From positions 1-20,036 of IMG/VR virus record IMGVR_UViG_3300042115_000060: DNA of 20,036 bases. One strand, written 5' to 3'. Position 1 is the first letter of the stretch; every line of letters begins with the position of its first letter. This DNA is from a virus. The notes under the pieces are model-generated. The model ran no database searches. It was not told the origin of the DNA and worked only from the letters and a program-made list of their open reading frames with translations. Both the position numbers and the translations under genes were made by a program. Positions 2,702 to 17,649 of the stretch are shown here, one piece after another.

Positions 2702-3583
2702 ATGGCTTGGTATCCGGGCGCCACGAAGTACGAACTCCAGCCCGAGTCGGACGCGCAAGCGGCGATCCGGCCGACCCAGTTCATCGTTCACAGCATCATC
2801 GCCCCGTGGACGGCGAAGCGGGTCTACGAGTACTGGCGGGATAGCACCAACTTGGAGTCCCATTTCGGCCTCGGTTATGAGGGCGACCTCGGCCAGTTCA
2901 TCGGCACGGAGACCCGAGCGGACGCGAACGCCGGCGCGAACCGGCGGGCGGACGGTACGGGCGCGGTGTCGATCGAGACGGCGTCGAACTTGCAGGGTTC
3001 GGATCCGTGGACGGCGGCGCAGGTCGAGGAGCTGACCAAGCTCGGTGTGTGGCTGCATCAGCGGCACGGGATCCCGCTTCGTGTCTGCCGTACCCACGAC
3101 GATCCGGGGTTCGGCTATCACCGGCTCTTCCCCGAGTGGTCTACGTCGGGCACCTCGTGCCCTGGTGACGCGCGGGTGAAGCAGTTCAAGGAGGTCGTGT
3201 TTCCGGGCATCGTCGCCCGCGCGACTGGTTCCACCCCACCGGAGGAGGACGACGTGGCCCTGACCGCGACGGATGTGAAGACTCTCGCGAAGACGGACGG
3301 CGTGTTCACGTCGCCGGACGGCGCGGACGACACGAAGGGAAACGAGTTCTGGAGCCTGGAGTCGTACCAGCGGTACGGCTACCTCCAGGGCCGCGAGACG
3401 AAGCAGCTCATCAAGGCGCTCGGCGTGAAGGTCGACGCGCAGAACACCATGATCGACCAGCTTGTGAAGACCGTTGCCACCCTCGCCGCGAACGTCGGCG
3501 ACATCGACCCGGCCGCGATCGTCGCCGAACTCAAGGCGTCGATCGAGTCCGTCACCATCCACCTCGACGCCGACGGCGTCTGA
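2702..3583 (+). CDS. Endolysin: N-acetylmuramoyl-L-alanine amidase
   Basis: A 293-aa protein; the ATG at 2702 sits 6 bases after GAGAAGGA. Residues 20-160 match the zinc amidase_2/PGRP fold. H30 (FIVHS), H140 (GYHR) and C153 (TSCPGD) fit the three zinc ligands of T7-lysozyme-like enzymes. Such enzymes cut the bond between N-acetylmuramic acid and L-alanine in peptidoglycan. After an acidic linker (about 180-190) the C-terminal region (about 190-290) has a WSLESYQRYGYLQG segment and a helical, coiled-coil-like end ending in IHLDADGV, probably for wall binding or oligomerisation. No signal peptide is seen, so export should depend on the adjacent holin. Confidence 0.9.
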   Translation: MAWYPGATKYELQPESDAQAAIRPTQFIVHSIIAPWTAKRVYEYWRDSTNLESHFGLGYEGDLGQFIGTETRADANAGANRRADGTGAVSIETASNLQGSDPWTAAQVEELTKLGVWLHQRHGIPLRVCRTHDDPGFGYHRLFPEWSTSGTSCPGDARVKQFKEVVFPGIVARATGSTPPEEDDVALTATDVKTLAKTDGVFTSPDGADDTKGNEFWSLESYQRYGYLQGRETKQLIKALGVKVDAQNTMIDQLVKTVATLAANVGDIDPAAIVAELKASIESVTIHLDADGV

Positions 3584-3932: not shown

Positions 3933-4229
3933 GTGCCGGATGAGCTGACGCTCGGCGAGTTGGCCCGCCGCCTGGACGATCGCACGGGCGACATTCGGGA
4001 TGACATTCGGGGCCTGTCTGAGGAGATGGCCAAGAAGGTCGACCAGCGGCTGTATGACATCCGGCACGATGCGCTCGCCGCTCGGGTGGCGACGTTGGAG
4101 ACGCTCAGGGAGAAGGACGCTGAGAAGCTCATCGCGACGCGCCGTTGGCTGATTGGTGCGGTGATTGTGCCACTGGTCGCAATCCTCCTGCCGATGGTCA
4201 TCCTGCTGGCTCGGGGGTCTGGGTCGTGA
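3933..4229 (+). CDS. Coiled-coil protein with C-terminal membrane anchor
   Basis: A 98-aa protein started at GTG 3933, which has GGAG 6 bases upstream; an upstream TTG at 3927 lies too close to that site. Residues 5-70 are highly charged and helical, with heptad-like spacing ([15 protein letters not shown] and on). Residues 72-93 form one hydrophobic segment ([21 protein letters not shown]). The layout, with a cytoplasmic coiled coil and a tail anchor, is common in lysis-cassette accessory proteins such as second holins or antiholins. Its stop overlaps the next start as GTGA, so it is probably co-translated with the collagen-like protein. Confidence 0.75.
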
Positions 4230-4861
4230 GCCGGGCGCAGGTGCGGGCGGAGGAGCGTCGGGGGCGTCGCGGTGACGTGTGGGCGGTCGTGGGCGCGGTG
4301 GCTTTGGGGGCGGTGCTGGCGTGGATTGTGCTGACGATTCAGGGTGTGACGCACGATCTGCACGAGGAGCGGGAGTACAACCGGCTGTTGGCGCAGCAGG
4401 TGCGGGATCTGGGCGGGAAGCCGATCAAGGGGCCGCCGGGTGAGCCGGGTGCTTCGGTGACGGGTCCGCCCGGCCCGCAGGGGGAGCCGGGGTCGCCGGG
4501 CGTGGACGGGGAGCCGGGCCCGTCGGGGAGTCCGGGTAAGGCGGGGGCGGACGGCGTCGATGGTTCTGACGGTAAGGCCGGGGAGCCCGGAGCCGTCGGC
4601 GCTTCGGGTCCGGCTGGTCCTGCTGGTCCTCCGGGTCCGCAGGGTGAGCCGGGTCCGCCTGGGCCTCAGGGCGAGCCGGGCGTGGACGGGGCGGACGGGG
4701 AGGATGGGCAGACGTGCCCGGACGGCTACAGCTTGCAGGCTCCGGCGTATGACGAGGCTGCGCTGGTGTGCCGCCGGGATGGGGCGCCGGATCCTGAGGA
4801 GCCGGGTGGTGGTCCGCAGGCGGCTGGGGCGTTGGATCCGCAGCGCCGCGTGTACGCGTAG
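4226..4861 (+). CDS. Membrane-anchored collagen-like protein
   Basis: A 211-aa protein that starts at GTG 4226, overlapping the previous stop (GTGA). A basic N-terminus (residues 1-17) precedes one membrane segment (about 18-39) and a short helical stem. Collagen-type Gly-X-Y repeats then run from about 69 to 160: three triplets, a two-residue break, and 27 uninterrupted triplets rich in GPP, GEP and GPQ. A small C-terminal head follows with two cysteines (C164 and C182) and an acidic tail. The order predicts a type II membrane protein with a trimeric rod reaching into the cell wall. Collagen-like repeats are known in phage fibre proteins; here the anchor and lysis-cassette position suggest a role in envelope disruption or surface exposure. 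That role is inference. Confidence 0.8.
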
Positions 4862-5145: not shown

Positions 5146-5376
5146 ATGACCGTCATCGACTTCAACGAGCGGCGCCGCAAAAGCGAACAGCCGAAGCCCG
5201 ACTACGTCACCTGCGAGTGCGGGGAGGCGTGGTTCGAACTGCGCGGCAACCATCCGAAGATGCCCGAGCACGGGGCGGTGGTGCTGCGTCCGGATGGCAC
5301 GATCAGCGGGTACGCGGGGACGCCGTGCTGCGTCGGCTGCGGGAAGGCTGCCGTGGTGCGGCCGACCGCGACGTGA
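5146..5376 (+). CDS. 76-aa zinc-ribbon-like protein
   Basis: The ATG at 5146 (MTVIDFNERRR) lacks an evident Shine-Dalgarno, so it may be read from a short or leaderless mRNA. An upstream in-frame start at 5110 is possible but has no better site. Two cysteine pairs, CEC (residues 23-25, in VTCECGEAW) and CCVGC (in GTPCCVGCG, near residue 60), flank a beta-type core ending GTISGYAGTP, the shape of a small zinc ribbon. The ligands are inferred from pattern, not homology. It converges with the 62-aa gene on the other strand, with the two stops adjacent at 5376/5377. Confidence 0.65.
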   Translation: MTVIDFNERRRKSEQPKPDYVTCECGEAWFELRGNHPKMPEHGAVVLRPDGTISGYAGTPCCVGCGKAAVVRPTAT

Positions 5377-5715: not shown

Positions 5716-5961
5716 ATGCTGTACCGCGTCACCTACCGCATCCTGCCCGCCGGAACGGGGCCGGACGACTACGAACCCGCCGACCTCGCAACCGGTGAAG
5801 TCGTTGTCGAGCTCGACGACCCCGAGCCGGTCGGTGTCATCAGCGGCGGCAGCATCCTGTCGTACGGCCCCCACCACCGAGACGTCGTCAAGGCAGTCAC
5901 CGAAGCCGCGCAGTTGAAGCCCGGCGACGAGCCCCTCATCCGCGACTGCACCCCCGCCTAG
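5716..5961 (+). CDS. 81-aa unknown protein
   Basis: MLYRVTYRILPAG starts about 10 bases after GGGAG. The protein is acidic and looks like a small alpha/beta fold: a short beta N-terminus (MLYRVTYRILP), an acidic middle (VVVELDDPEPVG) and a C-terminal amphipathic part (HHRDVVKAVTEAAQLKPGDE). No known family is recognised. It converges on and overlaps by 4 bases the stop of the 348-aa regulator gene on the other strand. It belongs to the accessory block between lysis and integrase genes. Confidence 0.65.
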   Translation: MLYRVTYRILPAGTGPDDYEPADLATGEVVVELDDPEPVGVISGGSILSYGPHHRDVVKAVTEAAQLKPGDEPLIRDCTPA

Positions 5962-7004
5962 ACCCGCCGCTCCGCATCCTCCAACCGGGCCCGATAGTAA
6001 GCATGGTCGCGCGGGAACCCCGCCAGCGCAGGCAGCGCTTCACGAAACCCAGCCGCCGCATCCGCCCACCGCTGGCACGCGTACGCCGCATCCGCCGCAT
6101 TCAACCGCGCCCTCGCCGCGTCCAGCCAGTACAACCAGCCCGGCCGCTCCTGTTCGTCCGGCACCTGTAGTGCCAGCCCGTGGGCCTCCTCGGCGAGGCG
6201 TACGGCACGATCCCGCTCACCCAACTGGGCTGCGGCCATCGCTTCCTGGTGCACTGCTACGGCCTCGGCTGCGGGGGACAGTGGGCGCGGGCCGGCGAAC
6301 CGGGCGCCCTCCGCAGTGCGTAGGGCGCGGACGGGATCCCCGTACTCCAGCGAGTAGTGCGCGCGGACGCGTTGCGCCCACGACGCCATGTCCGGGTGCC
6401 CGCCGTCGACAGCCCACCCGTGGGCGAGGTCAATCCAGGCGAGGGCGGGGCCGTGCTTGTTCTCCTGCCACGCCACCCAGCTGAGCCAGTGCGCGTGCTC
6501 CGCGGCGAGCAACAGCAGCCGGTCGGCGGCCAGCCCGCTCGTGCCAGGCAACAGTGCGGTCACCTGGTCGAGTTGCGCGCGAACGACAGGCCACAGGGCC
6601 AGCCCGCCGACCTCGTCTTCGGCACGCCGATGCTGCGCAAGGACGACACCAATCCAGTCCGCGGTACGCAGGTCCGCCCGTCCTCGGGTATGGGCGTGCG
6701 CGATCCGCTCCCGCAACTCGGCGGACGGCGACCACTCATCCGGGCCGAAGCGGACGGGGAGCCCAGTGAGTTCTGCTGGCACGTTCAGCCCTTCAGTCAT
6801 TCGGGCGATCAGCTCAGCGGACGTGACGCGTTTTCGGCCCGACTCGATGGCGGAGATGTAGGGCTGCGGCACCCCGATGAGGGGTTCCAGGCCGCGCTGC
6901 GACAGGCCGGACGCCCGCCGGTATTCGCGGAGGATTACAGCCCAGTCCTGGCGCGCCCAGGCGGCGCGTAAGCGGACGTCTGCCCAGGGTGTCTGACCAC
7001 TCAT
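5958..7004 (-). CDS. XRE-family HTH regulator with long helical (TPR-like) C-terminus
   Basis: The ATG at 7004 (MSGQTPWADV, 348 aa) is favoured over 7079 because a promoter-like -10, TATCGT, ends 6 bases before it, suggesting a leaderless message. Residues 24-78 form an XRE/Cro-type helix-turn-helix (LREYRRASGLSQRGLEPLIG, PYISAIESGRKRVT). The remaining 260 residues are Ala/Trp-rich paired helices (WLSWVAWQEN, ALAWIDLAHGWAV, AVRLAEEAHGLAL), resembling TPR-type ligand or peptide sensing modules of Streptomyces regulators. It faces three coupled Cys-rich mini-genes across a 109-bp divergent region, so it probably controls them and itself. Its signal is unknown. Confidence 0.85.
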   Translation of the reverse strand: MSGQTPWADVRLRAAWARQDWAVILREYRRASGLSQRGLEPLIGVPQPYISAIESGRKRVTSAELIARMTEGLNVPAELTGLPVRFGPDEWSPSAELRERIAHAHTRGRADLRTADWIGVVLAQHRRAEDEVGGLALWPVVRAQLDQVTALLPGTSGLAADRLLLLAAEHAHWLSWVAWQENKHGPALAWIDLAHGWAVDGGHPDMASWAQRVRAHYSLEYGDPVRALRTAEGARFAGPRPLSPAAEAVAVHQEAMAAAQLGERDRAVRLAEEAHGLALQVPDEQERPGWLYWLDAARARLNAADAAYACQRWADAAAGFREALPALAGFPRDHAYYRARLEDAERRV

Positions 7005-7010
7005 ACGGGG

Positions 7011-7043
7011 ACGATACGCCGCCCTGATATGCGGTGTGTATCG
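7011..7043. promoter_or_regulatory. Promoter and inverted repeat of the HTH/TPR-like regulator
   Basis: On the minus strand TACACA (7035-7040) and TATCGT (7011-7016) lie 18 bp apart, and TATCGT sits 6 bases before the regulator's ATG. CGATAC (7012-7017) and its inverse GTATCG (7038-7043) overlap both elements, a layout expected for autoregulation. Confidence 0.45.
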
Positions 7044-7113
7044 AATCGTGTTGGCCAAGTCACCAACCTGTTGTCTCAATCACACCGAGTCGGGTCGGGG
7101 AGAGAGAACACGC

Positions 7114-7305
7114 ATGGCCAGAACCAGCGCAGACGCAACGCCTGTCGGCTACGCCTACTGCTCGTGGCACCAGGGCTACGCCCGCGACGCACGGCTTGTA
7201 CGGCAACCACCGGACCAAGGGTCAGGGCCGGCACCGCAGGGCCTGTTCGCATGCGCGCCTTGCCGCCAGGCGTACAACCTCGTACCGCTGGAGGACCGGT
7301 CATGA
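7114..7305 (+). CDS. 63-aa Cys/His mini-protein
   Basis: The ATG at 7114 (MARTSADATPVGY) follows GGGAGAGAGA and is the first of three coupled genes. The motif CSWH near residue 20 and CAPC near residue 50 supply four potential zinc ligands, so a small treble-clef or ribbon fold is likely. An upstream in-frame ATG at 7036 lies inside the divergent promoter region and is disfavoured. No function is known; the gene is divergent from the 348-aa regulator. Confidence 0.65.
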   Translation: MARTSADATPVGYAYCSWHQGYARDARLVRQPPDQGSGPAPQGLFACAPCRQAYNLVPLEDRS

Positions 7306-7514
7306 CCACTCGCGTCGAGCTACCACCGGTTGAGCAGCTGTCGTACGGGCAGTACAACGGGCTGGCCTGCGTCTGGTGCGGGACGAACCTCACCACCGGC
7401 GCGGTCAGTGCCGGGATAGCGCGCGGCCAGATGGGCGCCCACATCCTCGACACCGAGGTGTACGCCTGCCCCGAACACGCCGACGGACCAGCCCCCGCAG
7501 GAGACACGCCATGA
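7302..7514 (+). CDS. 70-aa Cys/His mini-protein
   Basis: Its ATG overlaps the stop of the 63-aa gene (ATGA), so translation is probably coupled. CVWC near residue 23 and CPEH near residue 56 give four likely metal ligands around a Gly/Ala-rich middle (TTGAVSAGIARGQMGAHI). The layout repeats that of the previous gene, a CxxC/H pair at each end, although the sequences do not align well. No family is recognised. It may work as a partner of its neighbours under the divergent regulator. Confidence 0.7.
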   Translation: MTTRVELPPVEQLSYGQYNGLACVWCGTNLTTGAVSAGIARGQMGAHILDTEVYACPEHADGPAPAGDTP

Positions 7515-7630
7515 GCAAGAAGACCCTCCCCCGGCCGACACCGACCGGCCCGCTCGGGCACGGCTACTGCTGGAAGACGCACCCGAACCGGGGCGTCCAC
7601 TGCACCCAGCCGATCGGGCATGAGGCCTAG
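7511..7630 (+). CDS. 39-aa Cys/His mini-protein
   Basis: A third gene overlaps the previous stop by ATGA. It reads MSKKTLPRPTPTGPLGHGYC and continues with closely spaced C, H, H, C and H residues (GYCWKTHPNRGVHCTQPIGHEA), enough to bind one zinc ion. It is too short for a domain call. The exact coupling and the shared Cys/His character argue that it is real. It ends before the hairpins at 7688-7745. Confidence 0.6.
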   Translation: MSKKTLPRPTPTGPLGHGYCWKTHPNRGVHCTQPIGHEA

Positions 7631-7687
7631 GGCGTCGAGCACCTCTACCCGTACGTGCGACCTGAGATCCGCTGGCGCTGACAGCTT

Positions 7688-7745
7688 CCGCCGCCCCGTC
7701 TTCCCTCGGCGGCGGGAGACCGCCCCTCGTGCCGACAGAGGGGCG
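7688..7745. terminator. Two adjacent stem-loops between convergent genes
   Basis: Arms CCGCCGCC (7688-7695) and GGCGGCGG (7708-7715) form the first hairpin. CGCCCCTC (7721-7728) and GAGGGGCG (7738-7745) form the second. They lie between the rightward mini-gene operon and the leftward XRE gene and probably end transcription from both sides. Confidence 0.6.
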
Positions 7746-7788
7746 ATGGTGGCCCGCGAGCCGGTCTAACCCCCGAGCCGGCTGCGGG

Positions 7789-8025
7789 TCACCGCACCAG
7801 ATCCGACAGGGGCACGTTGAGGGCGTACGAGACGCGAATCAAGTTGTCGAGCTTCGCACTCGCCCGACCCTGCTCAATCCGGTTCACGGCCTGGCGGTCC
7901 AGCCCGGCTAACTCGGCGAGCCGTTCTTGGGTGAGGTTGGCGTGCAGGCGTGCGGCCCGGATCTGCTCGCCAACGGCCCGGCGGCGGTCGAAGACCCAGT
8001 CATCGGGCGGTGGGGCGGAATACAC
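7789..8025 (-). CDS. 78-aa XRE-family HTH protein
   Basis: A GTG start at 8025 gives a protein that is almost entirely one helix-turn-helix domain (residues about 18-76): VGEQIRAARLHANLTQERLA, then LDRQAVNRIEQGRASAKLDN, then a final helix ending DLVR. It lacks any sensor or cleavage domain, so it would act as a stable DNA-binding dimer, Cro-like or as a small autorepressor. It lies downstream of int on the same strand but is separated from it by the int terminator, and has its own upstream palindrome at 8059-8076. A second immunity regulator or a control protein for int are both possible. Confidence 0.85.
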   Translation of the reverse strand: MYSAPPPDDWVFDRRRAVGEQIRAARLHANLTQERLAELAGLDRQAVNRIEQGRASAKLDNLIRVSYALNVPLSDLVR

Positions 8026-8058
8026 CCGCTCACGCTGGCGTGATCAACCACGGATGTC

Positions 8059-8088
8059 TGTATCGTGCACCGTACATTCCTGGATCAA
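8059..8088 (-). promoter_or_regulatory. Promoter/operator upstream of the 78-aa HTH gene
   Basis: An 18-bp near-palindrome, TGTATCGTGCACCGTACA (8059-8076; 16 of 18 bases symmetric), is centred on GTGCAC. On the minus strand TTGATC (8083-8088) could be a -35, with a weak GATACA-type -10 inside the palindrome. Binding there would block transcription of the HTH gene. Confidence 0.45.
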
Positions 8089-8238
8089 GACGAACCCATG
8101 ATCGCAAGACCCGTGAACGGAAAACACACGATCCAGTGACTCCAGGACTACCCGCCCACCCTGGGGTTAAGCGGTTACTGGATGGGCGTCACAGACCGGT
8201 CGGCTCCGCATAGCCCCCAGGCTCGCGGCGGCCGACCC

Positions 8239-8276: not shown

Positions 8277-9881
8277 CTACACCAACCAGACGATCTCAAT
8301 CGTGTCCGTGTCGAGAAGCATGTTCCTCGGTAGGCGGCCCTTCCGGGCGGGATGCAGCCGCACCGTCATCATGTACGAGATCACCGCCCGCTGCCGCGAC
8401 AGATCCCACTTGCCCCACTCCTCCACCATGTCGTCCGCCGCAAGCAACCCAGCCACGGGGTTCACCTCCACCGCCCGCGACAGGACGCCTTCCGCAGCCT
8501 CCAGGCGCTCTCTCGCAAGCTTTGAAGCGATCCGCCACTCCGGCATGCTCATCGCCCCCGAACCAAGCTCCTGCGCCAGCTCATCCAACGTCTGACGGGC
8601 CTGCCGGATCGTGGCCTGAGCACCCCGCACATCCACCGGATCCTGCTTGTGCGCGAATATGTCTCCCGCATCGGGCCGCGCCAGCCGCTTCATCAGATTG
8701 GCCTGCACGAAGTCGTCCAACGGCTCAGCCTTCCGCACCACATGCTGACCCGCACGACAGCCATACGCGACTAGGTACCTGCCGCCAGCGCGATTGCTGG
8801 TCATGCACCGCACGGTCGCCCCGCACGGCCCACACACGTACAAGCCCGACCCGAGATACTTCCGCTCGTTCCCCGGTGTTGTACGCCGCCCCGGATCGTC
8901 GAGCAACGACACCAGACTCCGCCACGTCGGCTCATCCAGCGGACCGGGCCAGCCAGCAGGGCCGGCCTCTTTCCCGCGGTGCACGAGGATGCCCGCGTTC
9001 CTGGGACGGCGAAGCATCGCCCCGACCTCGGGGCCCTCCCAGTCGCTGCCCGTGCTCGTGAGGACCGGCGGGTTCATCCGGTTCCACTCGGCGGCGATGG
9101 CGCGCAGCGACCCGCCTGCGAGGATGGTGTCTGCGGCTTCCCGGATCCGCTGGAATTCGCTGCCTTCGGCCACAGTGGCGGCGTGCCCGCACTGGCGGCA
9201 CACCATCCACGTGTACCGGCTGTGGGGGGCGTGGCAGTGGTTGCAGGCCCAGCCGTCGAGGTTGTCGTCTCGGCCGCACTCCCCGCACTTGATGACCATC
9301 CGGAAGCCGTCTGGGTCGTCCTGCCCGCACGGCAGGCAGATCAGGGACCGCGGGGTGACGCCGTCAGCTTCCCACCCGAAGGGGCGACGCCCGCCGAAGA
9401 ACTTCCCGTCGCGGGCCATCTCGTCCCGCTTGCGTTTCTGCCGCTCCACCATCCGCTCAACCTCGTAGCGGGCCTGCACGCCCAGCTGCCGGGCGATCAT
9501 CCGGCCGGTGGCCGTGGACAGGTCCAGCACTCCGGCCTTGACCGTGCGGGTCTGTACGGCGCGTGGCTCGCACACGTCGATGTACTCCTCCAGTTCGGCC
9601 GGGGAGCGGTGGAGGCGGTCGGTGTGCCAGGCGAGGACGATGTCTGCCCGCCCGGCGCGGAGGTCGGCGAGGAGCTTCTGATATCCGGGGCGCGGCTTAC
9701 CCGAGTAGGCGGAGAGGTCGTTGTCGCTGTAGACGGCGACGACGTCGAGGCCGAGGCTGGCGGCGAGGACTTCGCAGTCTTCGCGTTGGCGGCCGACGCC
9801 GAGGCCGGCGCCTTCGCGGTCGCGGCTGATGCGGCAGTAGATGATCGCGCGGGTTGGGATGCCGGGTGCGTGGGTGGGCAT
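8277..9881 (-). CDS. int: Large serine integrase with extra CxxC-rich insertion
   Basis: A 534-aa site-specific recombinase. Residues 11-155 are the resolvase catalytic domain: nucleophile S19 in YCRISRD, plus YSDNDLSAYSGKPRPGY and the ADIVLAWHTDRLHR core. The recombinase domain resumes around 240 (FQRIREAADTILAGGSLRAI). The zinc-ribbon domain (CGPC near 355, then YGCRAGQH) is followed by a coiled-coil region (about 410-470) that governs synapsis direction. Between FGGRRPFGWEADG (about 162-174) and 240 lies an insertion with four CxxC knuckles at 182, 199, 213 and 228, which most phage integrases lack. It catalyses attP x attB integration. The start codon lies 18 bases from the candidate attP and has no clear Shine-Dalgarno. 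Confidence 0.95.
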   Translation of the reverse strand: MPTHAPGIPTRAIIYCRISRDREGAGLGVGRQREDCEVLAASLGLDVVAVYSDNDLSAYSGKPRPGYQKLLADLRAGRADIVLAWHTDRLHRSPAELEEYIDVCEPRAVQTRTVKAGVLDLSTATGRMIARQLGVQARYEVERMVERQKRKRDEMARDGKFFGGRRPFGWEADGVTPRSLICLPCGQDDPDGFRMVIKCGECGRDDNLDGWACNHCHAPHSRYTWMVCRQCGHAATVAEGSEFQRIREAADTILAGGSLRAIAAEWNRMNPPVLTSTGSDWEGPEVGAMLRRPRNAGILVHRGKEAGPAGWPGPLDEPTWRSLVSLLDDPGRRTTPGNERKYLGSGLYVCGPCGATVRCMTSNRAGGRYLVAYGCRAGQHVVRKAEPLDDFVQANLMKRLARPDAGDIFAHKQDPVDVRGAQATIRQARQTLDELAQELGSGAMSMPEWRIASKLARERLEAAEGVLSRAVEVNPVAGLLAADDMVEEWGKWDLSRQRAVISYMMTVRLHPARKGRLPRNMLLDTDTIEIVWLV

Positions 9882-10411: not shown

Positions 10412-10843
10412 CTATTCGCCCGACTTATCGTCACTCTGCGTGCGCCTACGGGCAAAGGTTTCCGCGATTGCGGCGAACTGCCGGCGCTCTTCCTCGGTCA
10501 TCTCCTCGGCGCGGGCCACGATCAGACGAGTCGTGAGGTCTCCACTCCATACGACGGAGGCGTCGGCGGCCGGGTCGTAGCCGAAGAACTGGATCGAGGC
10601 CGCCCTCTGCAACTCCTTCAAGGGGAGTCCGTAGCCGGCGGCGATGGCCTTGAGGCGGTGTTCCTTGGGCGGGTCGACGGGCTTGCCGAGTTCCACCTTG
10701 GAGAGCCAGCCGAACTTTGCCTGCTCGCCGCTGTCTGGGTCGATGCAGATCTTTTCCATGTCGCGCAGGCTCTTGCCGAGCTCGGCGCGCCGAGCCTTCA
10801 GCAGGTCGGCGAAGTCGGTCCGCTGCTCAGTCATGGCGTGCAT
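10412..10843 (-). CDS. XRE-family phage repressor (CI-like)
   Basis: A 143-aa protein with an ATG at 10843 after AGAAGGGG; a second ATG at 10834 (MTEQRTDF) is an alternative. Residues 10-75 form an XRE-type HTH (DLLKARRAELGKSLRDMEKI, then FGWLSKVELGKPVDPPKEHR and a following helix). The C-terminal half contains FFGYDPAADASVVWSG and a helical, charged end (VARAEEMTEEERRQFAAIAE), probably for dimerisation. No LexA-like Ser/Lys protease motif is seen, so induction would not follow RecA-driven self-cleavage. Position and divergence from the early operon make it the likely immunity repressor. Confidence 0.85.
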   Translation of the reverse strand: MHAMTEQRTDFADLLKARRAELGKSLRDMEKICIDPDSGEQAKFGWLSKVELGKPVDPPKEHRLKAIAAGYGLPLKELQRAASIQFFGYDPAADASVVWSGDLTTRLIVARAEEMTEEERRQFAAIAETFARRRTQSDDKSGE

Positions 10844-10882
10844 TGTGCCCCTTCTCTGTCCCCGTAGTGACGCCCGATGTCT

Positions 10883-10910
10883 ACGTTACGGTTTTTGATC
10901 ACTGAGTAAA
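10883..10910 (-). promoter_or_regulatory. Leftward repressor promoter
   Basis: On the minus strand TTTACT (10905-10910) and TAACGT (10883-10888) are 16 bp apart, upstream of the repressor start. A GTCTACG box (10879-10885) overlaps the -10, as expected for autoregulation. Confidence 0.5.
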
Positions 10911-10943
10911 TGCCAGGTCAGCGGACGCAACCGTTTGTGGCTC

Positions 10944-11092
10944 CGCACAGAGTGTCTACGGAAACGCCTCACGGCGCCATCCCTTCCGGATGTGATGACC
11001 GGATCCTGACTCGATGTGCGTTTTCGTAGACAGCACGTCTACGAGTGTGTACTGTCGTTCTTGTTCACGGAAACGCACACAGCGTCTACGGA
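10944..11092. promoter_or_regulatory. GTCTACG operator array of the genetic switch
   Basis: GTCTACG occurs at 10879, 10954, 11037 and 11084, and in inverse at 11025-11031. The central pair forms a perfect operator at 11024-11044 (TCGTAGAC, 5-base spacer, GTCTACGA). The 10944-10962 and 11074-11092 boxes agree at 17 of 19 bases in the frame CGCACAnAGnGTCTACGGA. One box overlaps the Shine-Dalgarno of the Cro-like gene. These are likely binding sites for the repressor and/or the Cro-like protein. Confidence 0.65.
11027..11055 (+). promoter_or_regulatory. Rightward early promoter
   Basis: TAGACA (11027-11032) and TACTGT (11050-11055) are separated by exactly 17 bp and point to the Cro-like gene. 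The palindromic operator at 11024-11044 covers the -35 and most of the spacer. Confidence 0.55.
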
Positions 11093-11101
11093 GGTAGCCA
11101 G

Positions 11102-11395
11102 GTGCGGCCCCAACAGGAATACATGGTCCTCGTGAGCAGCGACCTGCTGGTCATGCTCATGGAGCGCACCGGAGACGGACGCGAAGTCAGCGTCCGAGAA
11201 CTCGCCGACGCGGCCGGATGCCACCCCAGCAAGATCGACGCCCTGCGCAACGGGCGACGCAAGAAGTCCCTCTACGACGAGGCAACGGCAATTGCCAAAC
11301 GGCTTGGAGTAGACCTCCTCGTCCTCTGGGCCCACACCGGCCGAACCGTCGAAGCCCCCGCCGAGCCCACACACATCGCCGCGGTGCCGGCATGA
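11102..11395 (+). CDS. Cro-like HTH protein, first early gene
   Basis: The GTG at 11102 follows GGAGG with a 7-base gap and gives 97 residues. Residues 25-80 look like a small helix-turn-helix: REVSVRELADAAGCHPSKID, ALRNGRRKKSLY and AIAKRLGVDLLVLW. The short Pro/Ala tail seems disordered. Its place as first gene of the early operon, divergent from the repressor and with a GTCTACG box beside its ribosome-binding site, fits a Cro-type antirepressor that also limits early transcription. The longer frame from 11045 would start inside the promoter and is rejected. Confidence 0.8.
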   Translation: MRPQQEYMVLVSSDLLVMLMERTGDGREVSVRELADAAGCHPSKIDALRNGRRKKSLYDEATAIAKRLGVDLLVLWAHTGRTVEAPAEPTHIAAVPA

Positions 11396-15272: not shown

Positions 15273-15532
15273 CGACCGTCACGTCCGCCGGCCCCACCGG
15301 GCGCCTCGCCTACCTCCTCGACGCCATCCGCGTACAAGGCGGGCGCTGGACCACCAGCAAGGCATTCAACGCCTACCGCAGCCTGCCGCAACTCGCCGCA
15401 CTGGGGCCGGGCCAGATCCGCATCGTCGCCCGCGGTGACCTCCGCGACCTCGCCGCGTGGGGCTGGCTCACCGCCCACGACGACACCGGCCGCCGCGAGT
15501 ACACCCTCAACACCCGAAAGGACCACCAGTGA
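15269..15532 (+). CDS. 87-aa winged-helix-like protein
   Basis: ATGA coupling gives MTTVTSAGPTGRLAYLLDAI. The order helix (LAYLLDAIRVQGG), helix (WTTSKAFNAYRSL), helix (GQIRIVARGDLRDLAAWG) and a final beta hairpin (WLTAHDDTGRREYTLN) resembles a small winged helix. Such proteins bind DNA or mediate replication or recombination contacts. The fold is judged by eye only. It is coupled to the Rad52-like gene, so a helper role in recombination or its regulation is plausible. Confidence 0.7.
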   Translation: MTTVTSAGPTGRLAYLLDAIRVQGGRWTTSKAFNAYRSLPQLAALGPGQIRIVARGDLRDLAAWGWLTAHDDTGRREYTLNTRKDHQ

Positions 15533-16311
15533 CCCGCCTGACCGAACAGCAGGTTGGCTTCCTGCTGCAGCCCATCGCCAGCAACCGCGTCCGCAACCTG
15601 CGGGGCATGTCCCACCTCGAAGCGTGGGACGTCCGCCGCCAACTGATCCGCATCTTCGGCTTCGAGGGGTTCACTGTCGAAACCCTCTCCCTGGAACTCG
15701 TCGCCGAGCGGGAGACGAAGCAAGGCGACCGGTCCCGATGGACGATCGTCTACCGGGCCCAGGTCAGGCTCACGATCAAGACCGTCGACGGCACACCGAT
15801 CGCTGTCTTCGAGGACGCTGCAGCCGGTGACGCGGTCAACCAGCCGTCGATCGGAGACGCGCACGACCTCGCCATGAAGACCGCCCTGTCGCAGGCACTC
15901 AAGCGGTGCGCGGTCAACCTCGGCGACCAGTTCGGGCTGTCGCTCTACAACGACGGCTCACAAAACGCGGTAGTCATGCGGTCACTGGCGTACATGGGCG
16001 AGCCCGTGAAGGAGTCGGAGGACGCCCCGGTGCAGCCGGAGCCGACCCCGCAGACGCCGACGGTCGTACCCAATCCGACCGACCAGGACCGCGACCCCAA
16101 CCCCGCCGCCGAGCCGACGACGCCGACCGAGCAGGGCAACACGGAGTGGCAGGCCGCCCTCGACGAGATGCGGCAGATGGCCGCCGCCATCAACTTCGCC
16201 GACGGTCTCCCCGGTCAGTTCGTCGCCACCTTCGGCCACCCCATCGAGCAGGGCACCGCCGACGAGTTCCGCGAGGCCACCGCGCTCATGCGCGGCACCG
16301 CCGCCGCCTAA
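15529..16311 (+). CDS. Rad52-like single-strand annealing protein
   Basis: A 260-aa protein starting at GTG 15529 (GTGA overlap). Residues 1-140 match the Rad52/Rad22 annealing core: RGMSHLEAWDVRRQLIRIFG, then a beta sheet (TVETLSLELVAERE, RSRWTIVYRAQVRLTIKTVD), then the hallmark helix SIGDAHDLAMKTALSQALKR with CAVNLGDQFG at about 107-137. A Pro/Thr-rich linker (about 164-203) leads to a helical C-terminus that may bind a partner. Rad52-type proteins form rings that anneal complementary single strands during phage recombination and replication. The coupled winged-helix protein upstream and the nearby DEDDh exonuclease and RuvC-like protein complete a recombination module. Confidence 0.85.
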   Translation: MTRLTEQQVGFLLQPIASNRVRNLRGMSHLEAWDVRRQLIRIFGFEGFTVETLSLELVAERETKQGDRSRWTIVYRAQVRLTIKTVDGTPIAVFEDAAAGDAVNQPSIGDAHDLAMKTALSQALKRCAVNLGDQFGLSLYNDGSQNAVVMRSLAYMGEPVKESEDAPVQPEPTPQTPTVVPNPTDQDRDPNPAAEPTTPTEQGNTEWQAALDEMRQMAAAINFADGLPGQFVATFGHPIEQGTADEFREATALMRGTAAA

Positions 16312-16375: not shown

Positions 16376-16903
16376 ATGAACGTGAAGGAAGCAGCGGCCA
16401 GGGCCGCTGTCCTCGACACCCTCCACAAGGCCATCGGCGACGAGCTGAAGGCCGCCAAGCGCGACCTGGAGGACGGGCTGCGGGCCGCGAAGGCAGAGAC
16501 CGGAACCCAGAAGGTCGCCATCAGCCTCGACGAGCAGCAGGACATCGGCACCGCCAGCCTCGTCCAGCCGGCCGCCGCGGCCGTCGTCGCCGACGTCGAG
16601 AAGTTCAAGGCGTGGGTGATGGACCACTACGCGAGCGAGATCGAGCGGAAGTTCGTCACCGAGGTCCGTGCCTCGTTCACCGCCCGTCTGCTGAAGGAGA
16701 TGACCGCCGCCGGGGTGGCGCAGTGGGCCGACCCGGAGACGGGCGAGATCCACGATGTGCCGGGTGTGGAGATGCAGGGCCGGGCGGCGTACACGCGGCT
16801 GACGGTGCCGACTGCGGGCAAGCAGGCGATCGGGCAGGCGTGGCAGTCGGGCGCGCTCTCGCATCTGGTGCTTCCGCAGCTCACCGCCGGAGGTGCCGAG
16901 TGA
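16376..16903 (+). CDS. 175-aa unknown protein of the recombination module
   Basis: The ATG follows AGGAG by about 7 bases, and unlike its neighbours the gene is not coupled to the one before. Residues 1-50 are a charged helix (EAAARAAVLDTLHKAIGDEL, then AAKRDLEDGLRAAKAE); then QQDIGTASLVQP and a second helical stretch (VEKFKAWVMDHYASEIERKF). WADPETGEIHDVPGVEM and QGRAAYTRLTVP form a beta part. I do not recognise the family; a nuclease-inhibitor or DNA-end protection protein would fit the position, but this is only inference. Confidence 0.75.
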   Translation: MNVKEAAARAAVLDTLHKAIGDELKAAKRDLEDGLRAAKAETGTQKVAISLDEQQDIGTASLVQPAAAAVVADVEKFKAWVMDHYASEIERKFVTEVRASFTARLLKEMTAAGVAQWADPETGEIHDVPGVEMQGRAAYTRLTVPTAGKQAIGQAWQSGALSHLVLPQLTAGGAE

Positions 16904-17649
16904 CCGCCCTCGTGCAGCCCGACCTCGCCGGGCACGTCGAACTCCCCTGGCACCGCGGGCCACTCGCCTCGTACGACTGCGAGACGAGCGGCCTCAACAT
17001 CGGCGAGGACCGCATCGTCACAGCCGCCCTGATCCGACCCAACGGGGAGACCCGCCGCTGGTTCTCCGACGCTGACGGCGTCGAGATCCCCGAGGCCGCC
17101 AGCAACATCCACGGCTACACCACCGATGTCGTACGGGCCAAGGGGCACCCCGCAAAGCAGGTCGTCGAGGAGATCACCGACGCGCTCGCCGGAGAACTCT
17201 CAGCCGGCCGCGCGGCGCTGGTTGTGATGAACGCCCCGTTCGACCTGAGCCTGTTGGACGCGGAGTGCGCCCGGCATGGCGTGCCGACGATCGCTGAGCG
17301 GATCGGCGCCGTCGCACCGATCGTGGACCCCCTCGTTCTCGACCGGGCGGCGGACAAGTACCGGTCTGGTCGCCGGAATCTGGAGACGCTCGCCAAGCAC
17401 TACGGCGTGACGCTCACGGACGCGCACCAGGCGGACGCCGATGCCCAGGCCGCGCTCGCTGTGGCGCGGCGGATCGCGGAGGAGCACCCGAAGGTGCAGG
17501 TACCTGCGCGGGTGCTGCACGGCTGGCAGGTGCAGTGGCACGCGCGGTGGGCTGCGGACCGCGAGGCGTTCCTGGCACGGAAGGGCAAGACGGAGTCGGT
17601 CGACGGCACGTGGCCGATCCGCCCCGTCCCGGCGGGAGGTGCGGCATGA
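16900..17649 (+). CDS. DnaQ-like DEDDh 3'-5' exonuclease
   Basis: A 249-aa protein from GTG 16900 (GTGA overlap). Motif I is D26/E28 in SYDCETSGL, motif II NAPFD with D115, and motif III H176xxxxD181 in AHQADADAQ. These are the four acidic residues and histidine of DEDDh nucleases that bind two metal ions and remove nucleotides from 3' ends. The C-terminal 50 residues (VQVPARVLHGWQVQWHARWA and on) resemble a short helical extension common in phage versions. It probably provides single-strand trimming for the Rad52-like protein, or proofreading for a polymerase encoded beyond the window. Confidence 0.88.
   Translation: MTALVQPDLAGHVELPWHRGPLASYDCETSGLNIGEDRIVTAALIRPNGETRRWFSDADGVEIPEAASNIHGYTTDVVRAKGHPAKQVVEEITDALAGELSAGRAALVVMNAPFDLSLLDAECARHGVPTIAERIGAVAPIVDPLVLDRAADKYRSGRRNLETLAKHYGVTLTDAHQADADAQAALAVARRIAEEHPKVQVPARVLHGWQVQWHARWAADREAFLARKGKTESVDGTWPIRPVPAGGAA

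Follow-up and report, generated by a model that had tools for sequence, protein, structure and literature searches.

The virus record IMGVR_UViG_3300042115_000060, analysed here in its entirety as one window of 20,036 bases, carries a unit in which the gene of a helix-turn-helix (HTH) regulator of the NsdA family stands divergent from three very small genes. It is proposed, with about even confidence, that temperate Streptomyces phages carry this unit as an accessory locus, in which the NsdA-family regulator controls an operon of small zinc proteins that modulate host regulators in lysogeny. The first-pass annotation, made from the letters of the window, had described a regulator of 348 amino acids (aa) divergent from genes of 63, 70 and 39 aa joined by overlaps; the coordinates are as described and each overlap reads ATGA. 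Its limits of 5958-7630 were too narrow, because two further genes belong to the unit, a conserved one at 5716-5961 and one of small XRE type at 7789-8025. The parts of the unit, followed by two context genes, are:

5716-5961, plus strand: companion gene ("gene 1", protein P0003), about 80 aa, convergent with the regulator gene with a 4-nt overlap
5958-7004, minus strand: regulator P0001, 348 aa, HTH_XRE with a body like tetratricopeptide repeats (TPR), NsdA family
7005-7113: divergent control region between the regulator gene and mini-gene 1
7010-7042: putative operator, with a GATAC-type element at 7010-7020 and a dyad GATAT..GTATC at 7026-7042 that is imperfect in the window phage
7085-7098, plus strand: conserved leader element of 14 nt, directly before mini-gene 1
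7114-7305, plus strand: mini-gene 1 (P0004), 63 aa, "B family", C-x-W-H ... C-x-x-C
7302-7514, plus strand: mini-gene 2 (P0005), 70 aa, "C family", C-x-x-C ... C-P-x-H/C
7511-7630, plus strand: mini-gene 3, 39 aa, truncated allele of a 56-aa gene
7789-8025, minus strand: small XRE gene, 78 aa, which ends the exchanged segment (Pfam HTH_3, 55 bits)
8277-9881, minus strand: serine integrase, context (Pfam Resolvase, 97.8 bits, and Recombinase)
2702-3583, plus strand: amidase endolysin of the lysis cassette, context (Pfam Amidase_2)

The regulator has relatives at 33 viral loci and at 21 bacterial ones, the latter mostly in Streptomyces. Genes were called by our own codon-usage script and then clustered, with gene tables made without L003, L062 and L063, and layout was counted on 42 loci after removal of six duplicates (of the window or of other loci) and of five loci with an unrecognised regulator start. 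The usual layout is lysis genes, a gene of about 80 aa, the regulator, divergent small genes (the payload), a small XRE gene and an integrase; in the window the order is endolysin, more small genes (holin-like by position), companion gene, regulator, mini-genes, small XRE gene and serine integrase. The companion gene adjoins the regulator in 36 of the 42 loci, and in 39 of them one or more of the first three payload genes is small. A small XRE gene lies past the payload in 23 of the 31 loci having at least 1.5 kb of sequence there, and an integrase-family gene in 19 of the 29 having at least 3 kb. The earlier suggestion of one unit with a shared control region and an accessory character is borne out. 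The companion gene is under constraint in two pairs, with ratios of nonsynonymous to synonymous substitution rates (dN/dS) of 0.27 and 0.45; P0003 has no Pfam or NCBIfam match and one weak PHROG match (E 0.04), and its alignment pointed to no function.

Block-wise comparison indicates that the small genes are swapped between phages while the regulator, leader, control region and surroundings stay. Identity between the window and L005, taken per 100-nt block, is 83-90% at 6801-7100, 42-55% at 7101-7800 and 67-76% at 7801-8100, and in L006 and L008 the identity to the window falls at the same point, from 84 to 46% and from 73 to 41%. The reverse is seen in L007, where the HTH and operator (6701-7100) are 58-70% identical and are flanked by a body at 80-93% and a payload start at 88%. 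Payload families vary widely between loci, and the divergent region is kept although the first payload genes differ. The exchanged genes share a feature: of the 80 small genes that rank within the first three of the payload, 55 carry a Cxx[C/H] motif, versus 12 of 160 other small genes of the same loci (Fisher p 5e-23), and at least one such gene occurs in 35 of the 39 loci with a small payload gene. Six payload families (46, 7, A, 20, 22 and 39) have dN/dS values of 0.16-0.52. At one locus, L045:1416-3565 of Streptomyces sp. NBC_00154, a cluster-7-type mini-gene runs into a MerR-resolvase protein that is followed by a TnpB-like protein with a Cas12f1-like TNB domain, an insertion that we take to be of IS607 type.

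The exchange bears on two other explanations of the unit. In a toxin-antitoxin or addiction unit the HTH protein would be the antitoxin and the small proteins the toxins, as was once proposed for XRE-DUF397 pairs (PMC7159879). The payload, however, varies under a nearly constant regulator and therefore no fixed toxin-antitoxin pairing exists; moreover, the XRE-DUF397 pairs of S. coelicolor are pleiotropic regulators which are reported to have shown no toxin-antitoxin behaviour when tested (PMC10364602, PMC6262351), and we consider this explanation very doubtful. The second would make the regulator an additional switch of lysis-lysogeny or integration, with a mini-protein acting as directionality factor or anti-repressor for the neighbouring integrase. 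The unit does adjoin the integrase and a small XRE gene, and the model of the regulator is similar to switches that sense peptides, PlcR and Rap for example, but a repressor/Cro-like pair separate from the unit is present at 10412-11395, and near several relatives of the mini-genes on chromosomes and plasmids no integrase is annotated or recognised. Furthermore, the payload of L005 differs though 100-nt blocks of the integrase gene at 8801-9800 are 63-89% identical, which would not be expected if a mini-protein were the partner of the integrase. A role in lysis-lysogeny or integration control seems improbable.

The mini-proteins themselves appear to be genuine, conserved and probably zinc-binding. 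A codon-usage gene caller scores all three mini-genes as coding (4.3, 17.9 and 12.8, the first being weak), and P0004, compared with its nearest relative across 39 codons, shows a dN/dS of about 0.10; mini-genes 1 and 2 are more than chance frames because their families co-occur elsewhere, this ratio is low and the ligand Cys/His residues are conserved. The third gene had been listed as one of 39 aa, but its frame is open to 56 aa in all three near-identical phage contigs (L002-L004), so the window holds an allele cut by a premature stop; relatives in other phages have 53-64 aa. Both families have four conserved Cys/His ligands in two pairs. In the B family (38 aligned members) the ligand columns are C in 38/38, H in 33 or C in 4 of 37, C in 37/37 and C in 36/37, while the C family (53 members) has C in 53/53, C in 49/53, C in 47/52 and C in 38 or H in 5 of 45. 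Since Cys and His interchange at one position, as they do in zinc sites, the ligand sites look zinc-like, and these columns support the zinc ligands suspected in the first-pass annotation. The C-family model (P0005, mean pLDDT 85) displays a CxxC turn and a beta-hairpin followed by the second ligand pair, and its best VIA match is a weak one to a PHD-like domain (Z 2.6, rmsd 3.5, 45 aligned).

Known families gave no name to these proteins. P0004, P0005 and the 39-aa product match no Pfam family at E up to 1, DUF397 included, and the B and C families reach no Pfam, PHROGs, NCBIfam or PADLOC model, a single NCBIfam match at E 0.08 being far below the cut-off. Literature searches, judged by title and the start of the abstract, returned nothing describing the locus or the B/C small-protein families. 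Both families therefore appear undescribed in the libraries and literature searched, which is no proof that none has been described. The earlier remark on a lack of known families thus holds for the mini-proteins and fails for the regulator.

The payload, with its exchange and its many unrelated small families, would also fit an arms race, and the main rival to a role as regulator partners is prophage defence, in which the exchanged mini-proteins would be exclusion factors that block other phages in lysogeny and the regulator would limit their cost. Defence carried by a prophage is reported for mycobacteriophage Sbash (PMC6426596), and Gordonia phage defence genes are described as variable, lysogenically expressed and sited around the middle of the genome, not far from the integrase and repressor genes (PMC6426606). 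The unit resembles the defence genes of Sbash and CarolAnn in its variable small genes and its similar central place in the genome; it differs in keeping a dedicated regulator and control region while the payload changes. In PADLOC-DB none of P0003, P0004, P0005 and the 39-aa product had a match, P0001 and the small XRE protein matched via their HTH regions only, and defence alone leaves unexplained why the same families stand beside several types of host regulator. The first-pass term "defence-type" is solely an analogy of genome position; we regard defence as possible, though on balance unlikely.

The regulator belongs to the NsdA family by model NF053720 of NCBIfam, to which P0001 scores 102.6 bits (cut-off 75) with its best stretch at residues 104-341; the relatives L043, L028 and L052 also exceed this cut-off (97.7, 96.2 and 99.4 bits). 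It is not NsdA itself, as it reaches only 23.6 bits on the NsdA equivalog model NF050130, whose cut-off is 830, and it further differs from that family in being phage-borne and in having its HTH outside the best-matched stretch. NsdAsr of S. rimosus is reported to bind DNA (chromatin immunoprecipitation and electrophoretic mobility shift assays) and to repress production of the antibiotic rimocidin (PMC12243394). The XRE assignment of the first-pass annotation agrees with matches to Pfam HTH_31 (42.6 bits) and HTH_3, both above the Pfam cut-offs, and its TPR-like body with an AlphaFold2 model (43 sequences, mean pLDDT 87) that is all-helical with a repeat as the body; residues 109-343 match a PHROGs transcriptional regulator. 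Foldseek ranks PlcR in complex with peptide and DNA first (E 3.5e-4, 12% identity), with general TPR proteins next, and VIA-align gives Z of about 15 to many TPR proteins, Rap and PlcR among them; AimR is absent from the 50 VIA-align matches listed, an absence without any weight. The model and these fold matches suggest a sensor of the HTH-TPR type, an architecture shared with the RRNPP peptide-sensing regulators (PlcR, Rap); the identity to PlcR is however only 12% and TPR folds match many unrelated TPR proteins, so that a fold match between helical-repeat proteins counts as weak evidence, and the shared fold shows no function. We infer that P0001 binds DNA and that its TPR body would sense a ligand. 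No obvious signal peptide was seen in the neighbouring small genes when these were read by eye, without a signal-peptide program, and no secreted-peptide gene was identified among them. Over the 11 kb compared, 17 positions distinguish the window from its near-identical contig L004, and the 12 listed all fall at 6543-6603 within the regulator, which suggests a small exchanged patch.

The control region was compared by eye over 49 sequences and aligned with MAFFT for 42 loci. Perfect 7+7 dyads are present in the operator part of 15 of the 42 loci, versus 1.3 expected, and the 14-nt leader element, with up to two substitutions, in 29. A leader pattern (ACGATG, gap, CCGAGTCGGGTCGG) was found once each in 6 of 392 Streptomyces genomes and also in 17 viral contigs; the reversed control gave 0 hits. 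The sole terminator-like site falls inside the control region, and Rfam has no match there or in the whole window. For a test of operator distance, loci with identical or incomplete regulators were dropped, which left 42. Operator distance correlates with HTH distance at r 0.64 and with body distance at r 0.37; in partial correlation the HTH retains 0.57 (p 2e-4) and the body 0.08, and regulator residues 1-20, which lie between operator and HTH, contribute nothing (0.018). Operator divergence thus appears, from these distances, to follow the DNA-binding domain and not the body. A bolder proposal is a modular conversion device of three separately exchangeable parts: a strongly conserved TPR sensor, a matched block of HTH plus operator, and swappable zinc mini-proteins as partners of host regulators. 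The sensor would read a signal common to all, either a peptide or a metabolite of the host, to which each phage would respond with its own set of regulator-binding mini-proteins. We hold this to be speculative and rather unlikely; if it were true, the input would stay constant while phages traded the outputs that reprogram the host.

Relatives of the mini-genes are widespread in hosts. Among 121 Streptomyces genomes the C family is present in 47 and the B family in 26. The first-pass annotation had named mini-genes that are not conserved together as the outcome that would count against a unit; this did not occur, as 13 of 38 B hits in these genomes have a C hit on the same strand within about 250 bp (B first in 10, C first in 3). 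The two families are also co-located on plasmids (NBC_01450, S. goshikiensis). To describe the regulators beside them, 53 loci were examined, of which 20 had no usable neighbour, and 3 of the 33 large neighbours found were left out. The 30 large proteins include eight of the NsdA family, seven with DUF5753 and three GntR proteins, and HTH_31 is present in 18. Four neighbours divergent from the B/C genes were looked at one by one: those of L097, L098 and L111, with 204-227 bits on the NsdA family model, and that of L103, a GntR protein. Because the B/C relatives adjoin host regulators, the NsdA family included, the unit of the phages looks like a mobile version of the host loci that pair a regulator with a small partner. 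In the Streptomyces genomes of L098, L099 and L103 the C-family gene is followed by a protein of about 160 aa (of no family in L098) and then by one of about 220-233 aa, which is a SAM methyltransferase in L098; this small gene set looks biosynthetic, and phages L020 and L021 have a payload protein of similar appearance by eye.

Of three window proteins sought by tblastn in 50,697 phage records, mini-protein 2 (70 aa) alone has matches, in 14 records; the regulator and gene 1 have none. The isolated phages Eastland and Ignacio, Streptomyces phages of cluster BP, occupy the same slot with small genes of families A, B and C in one operon, after an HTH protein and before a serine integrase (the Eastland sequences were read). 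The HTH protein of Eastland differs in being outside the NsdA family by NCBIfam and co-directional with the small genes; a search of the Eastland record with the regulator profile was empty, a result that alone shows nothing. In the cluster announcement, which does not take up the small genes, these phages are predicted to be temperate (PMC9583777).

Among host systems a close parallel is offered by the XRE-DUF397 pairs (Scr1/Scr2; WhiJ/BldB), in which an HTH regulator gene likewise adjoins genes of small proteins; relatives of the window mini-proteins moreover adjoin XRE regulators of DUF5753 type. The window mini-proteins differ in lacking DUF397 and in having a Cys/His ligand pattern, and the body of the window regulator is NsdA/TPR-like instead of DUF5753. 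In S. venezuelae, which offers the nearest example studied in detail, WhiJ9 is reported to bind the iosA-whiJ9 divergent region and to activate iosA, a divergent control region like that of the window, and small BldB-type proteins are reported to hetero-oligomerise and are linked to WhiJ loci (PMC10294661). At four bacterial loci with relatives of the regulator (L051, L052, L055 and L058) early payload genes look by eye like HATPase_c (AbaA-like) genes, as in WhiJ/AbaA loci.

Integration would place the unit at a border, since the slot between lysis cassette and integrase becomes the edge of an integrated prophage. In S. scabiei 87.22 the prophage has the serine integrase (7156189-7157718) at one end; at the opposite end the payload is followed by GDT1-antiporter and HAD-hydrolase genes, so that in this genome the integrated unit is located at the prophage edge. 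Direct repeats that might serve as att sites were sought in two chromosomes, where no convincing pair was found; the best, of 18 nt in S. scabiei, has both copies well outside the prophage genes. In Streptomyces sp. CC53 the small XRE gene of the unit is followed, at a distance of about 1 kb, by a gene for a Cas3-HD helicase (L057:2-1744). Elsewhere in the window, a 211-aa protein with collagen-like repeats (4226-4861) lies between the lysis genes and the unit, and a further small Cys-rich gene (5146-5376; 76 aa, CxC and CxxC motifs) just 5' of it. A Rad52/22-family annealing protein (15529-16311) and an RNase_T-type exonuclease (16900-17649) are probably a phage recombination pair, and no tRNAs are present in the window.

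Several observations weigh against the proposed accessory role. The small XRE gene or the integrase is absent from some loci, and the five loci dropped for their regulator start stand outside the layout count. Two C-family pairs are under weak constraint (dN/dS 0.73 and 0.76), and fold searches with P0005 gave no significant match (best Foldseek E 1.2). The window phage's own dyad is imperfect, it is without the ACGATG element that is present in 26 of the 42 loci, and no sigma-70-type promoter was found. Finally, regulator residues 67-100 track the operator as well as the HTH does (0.638 vs 0.644), and the operator-HTH correlation may in part be due to a single mosaic block inherited as a whole.

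Weighed against these points are the layout, the exchange, the conserved ligands, the co-divergence of operator and HTH and the host-borne relatives beside regulators, all of which can be read from the sequences themselves. The best reading is that the locus is a mobile variant of the Streptomyces loci of regulator and small partner (cf. XRE-DUF397), carried as prophage accessory genes. It is proposed that the HTH-TPR regulator of the NsdA family recognises an operator within the divergent region and controls both its own gene and the operon of small zinc-binding proteins, with the TPR body probably sensing a peptide, a small molecule or a partner protein. The operon, whose content is swapped between phages while regulator, leader and surroundings are kept, would be expressed during lysogeny, and by analogy with WhiJ/BldB the mini-proteins are most likely small partners of regulators that would alter host gene expression in the lysogen.

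The analysis thus brings forward two unnamed, very small, conserved and probably zinc-binding families that are common in Streptomyces, where they are associated with regulators, and that phages carry in exchangeable sets, and the loci offer a natural series of matched HTH-operator pairs for study. If the mini-proteins modulate host regulators or block other phages, prophages would have in them a testable means of altering development, antibiotic production or phage sensitivity in Streptomyces.

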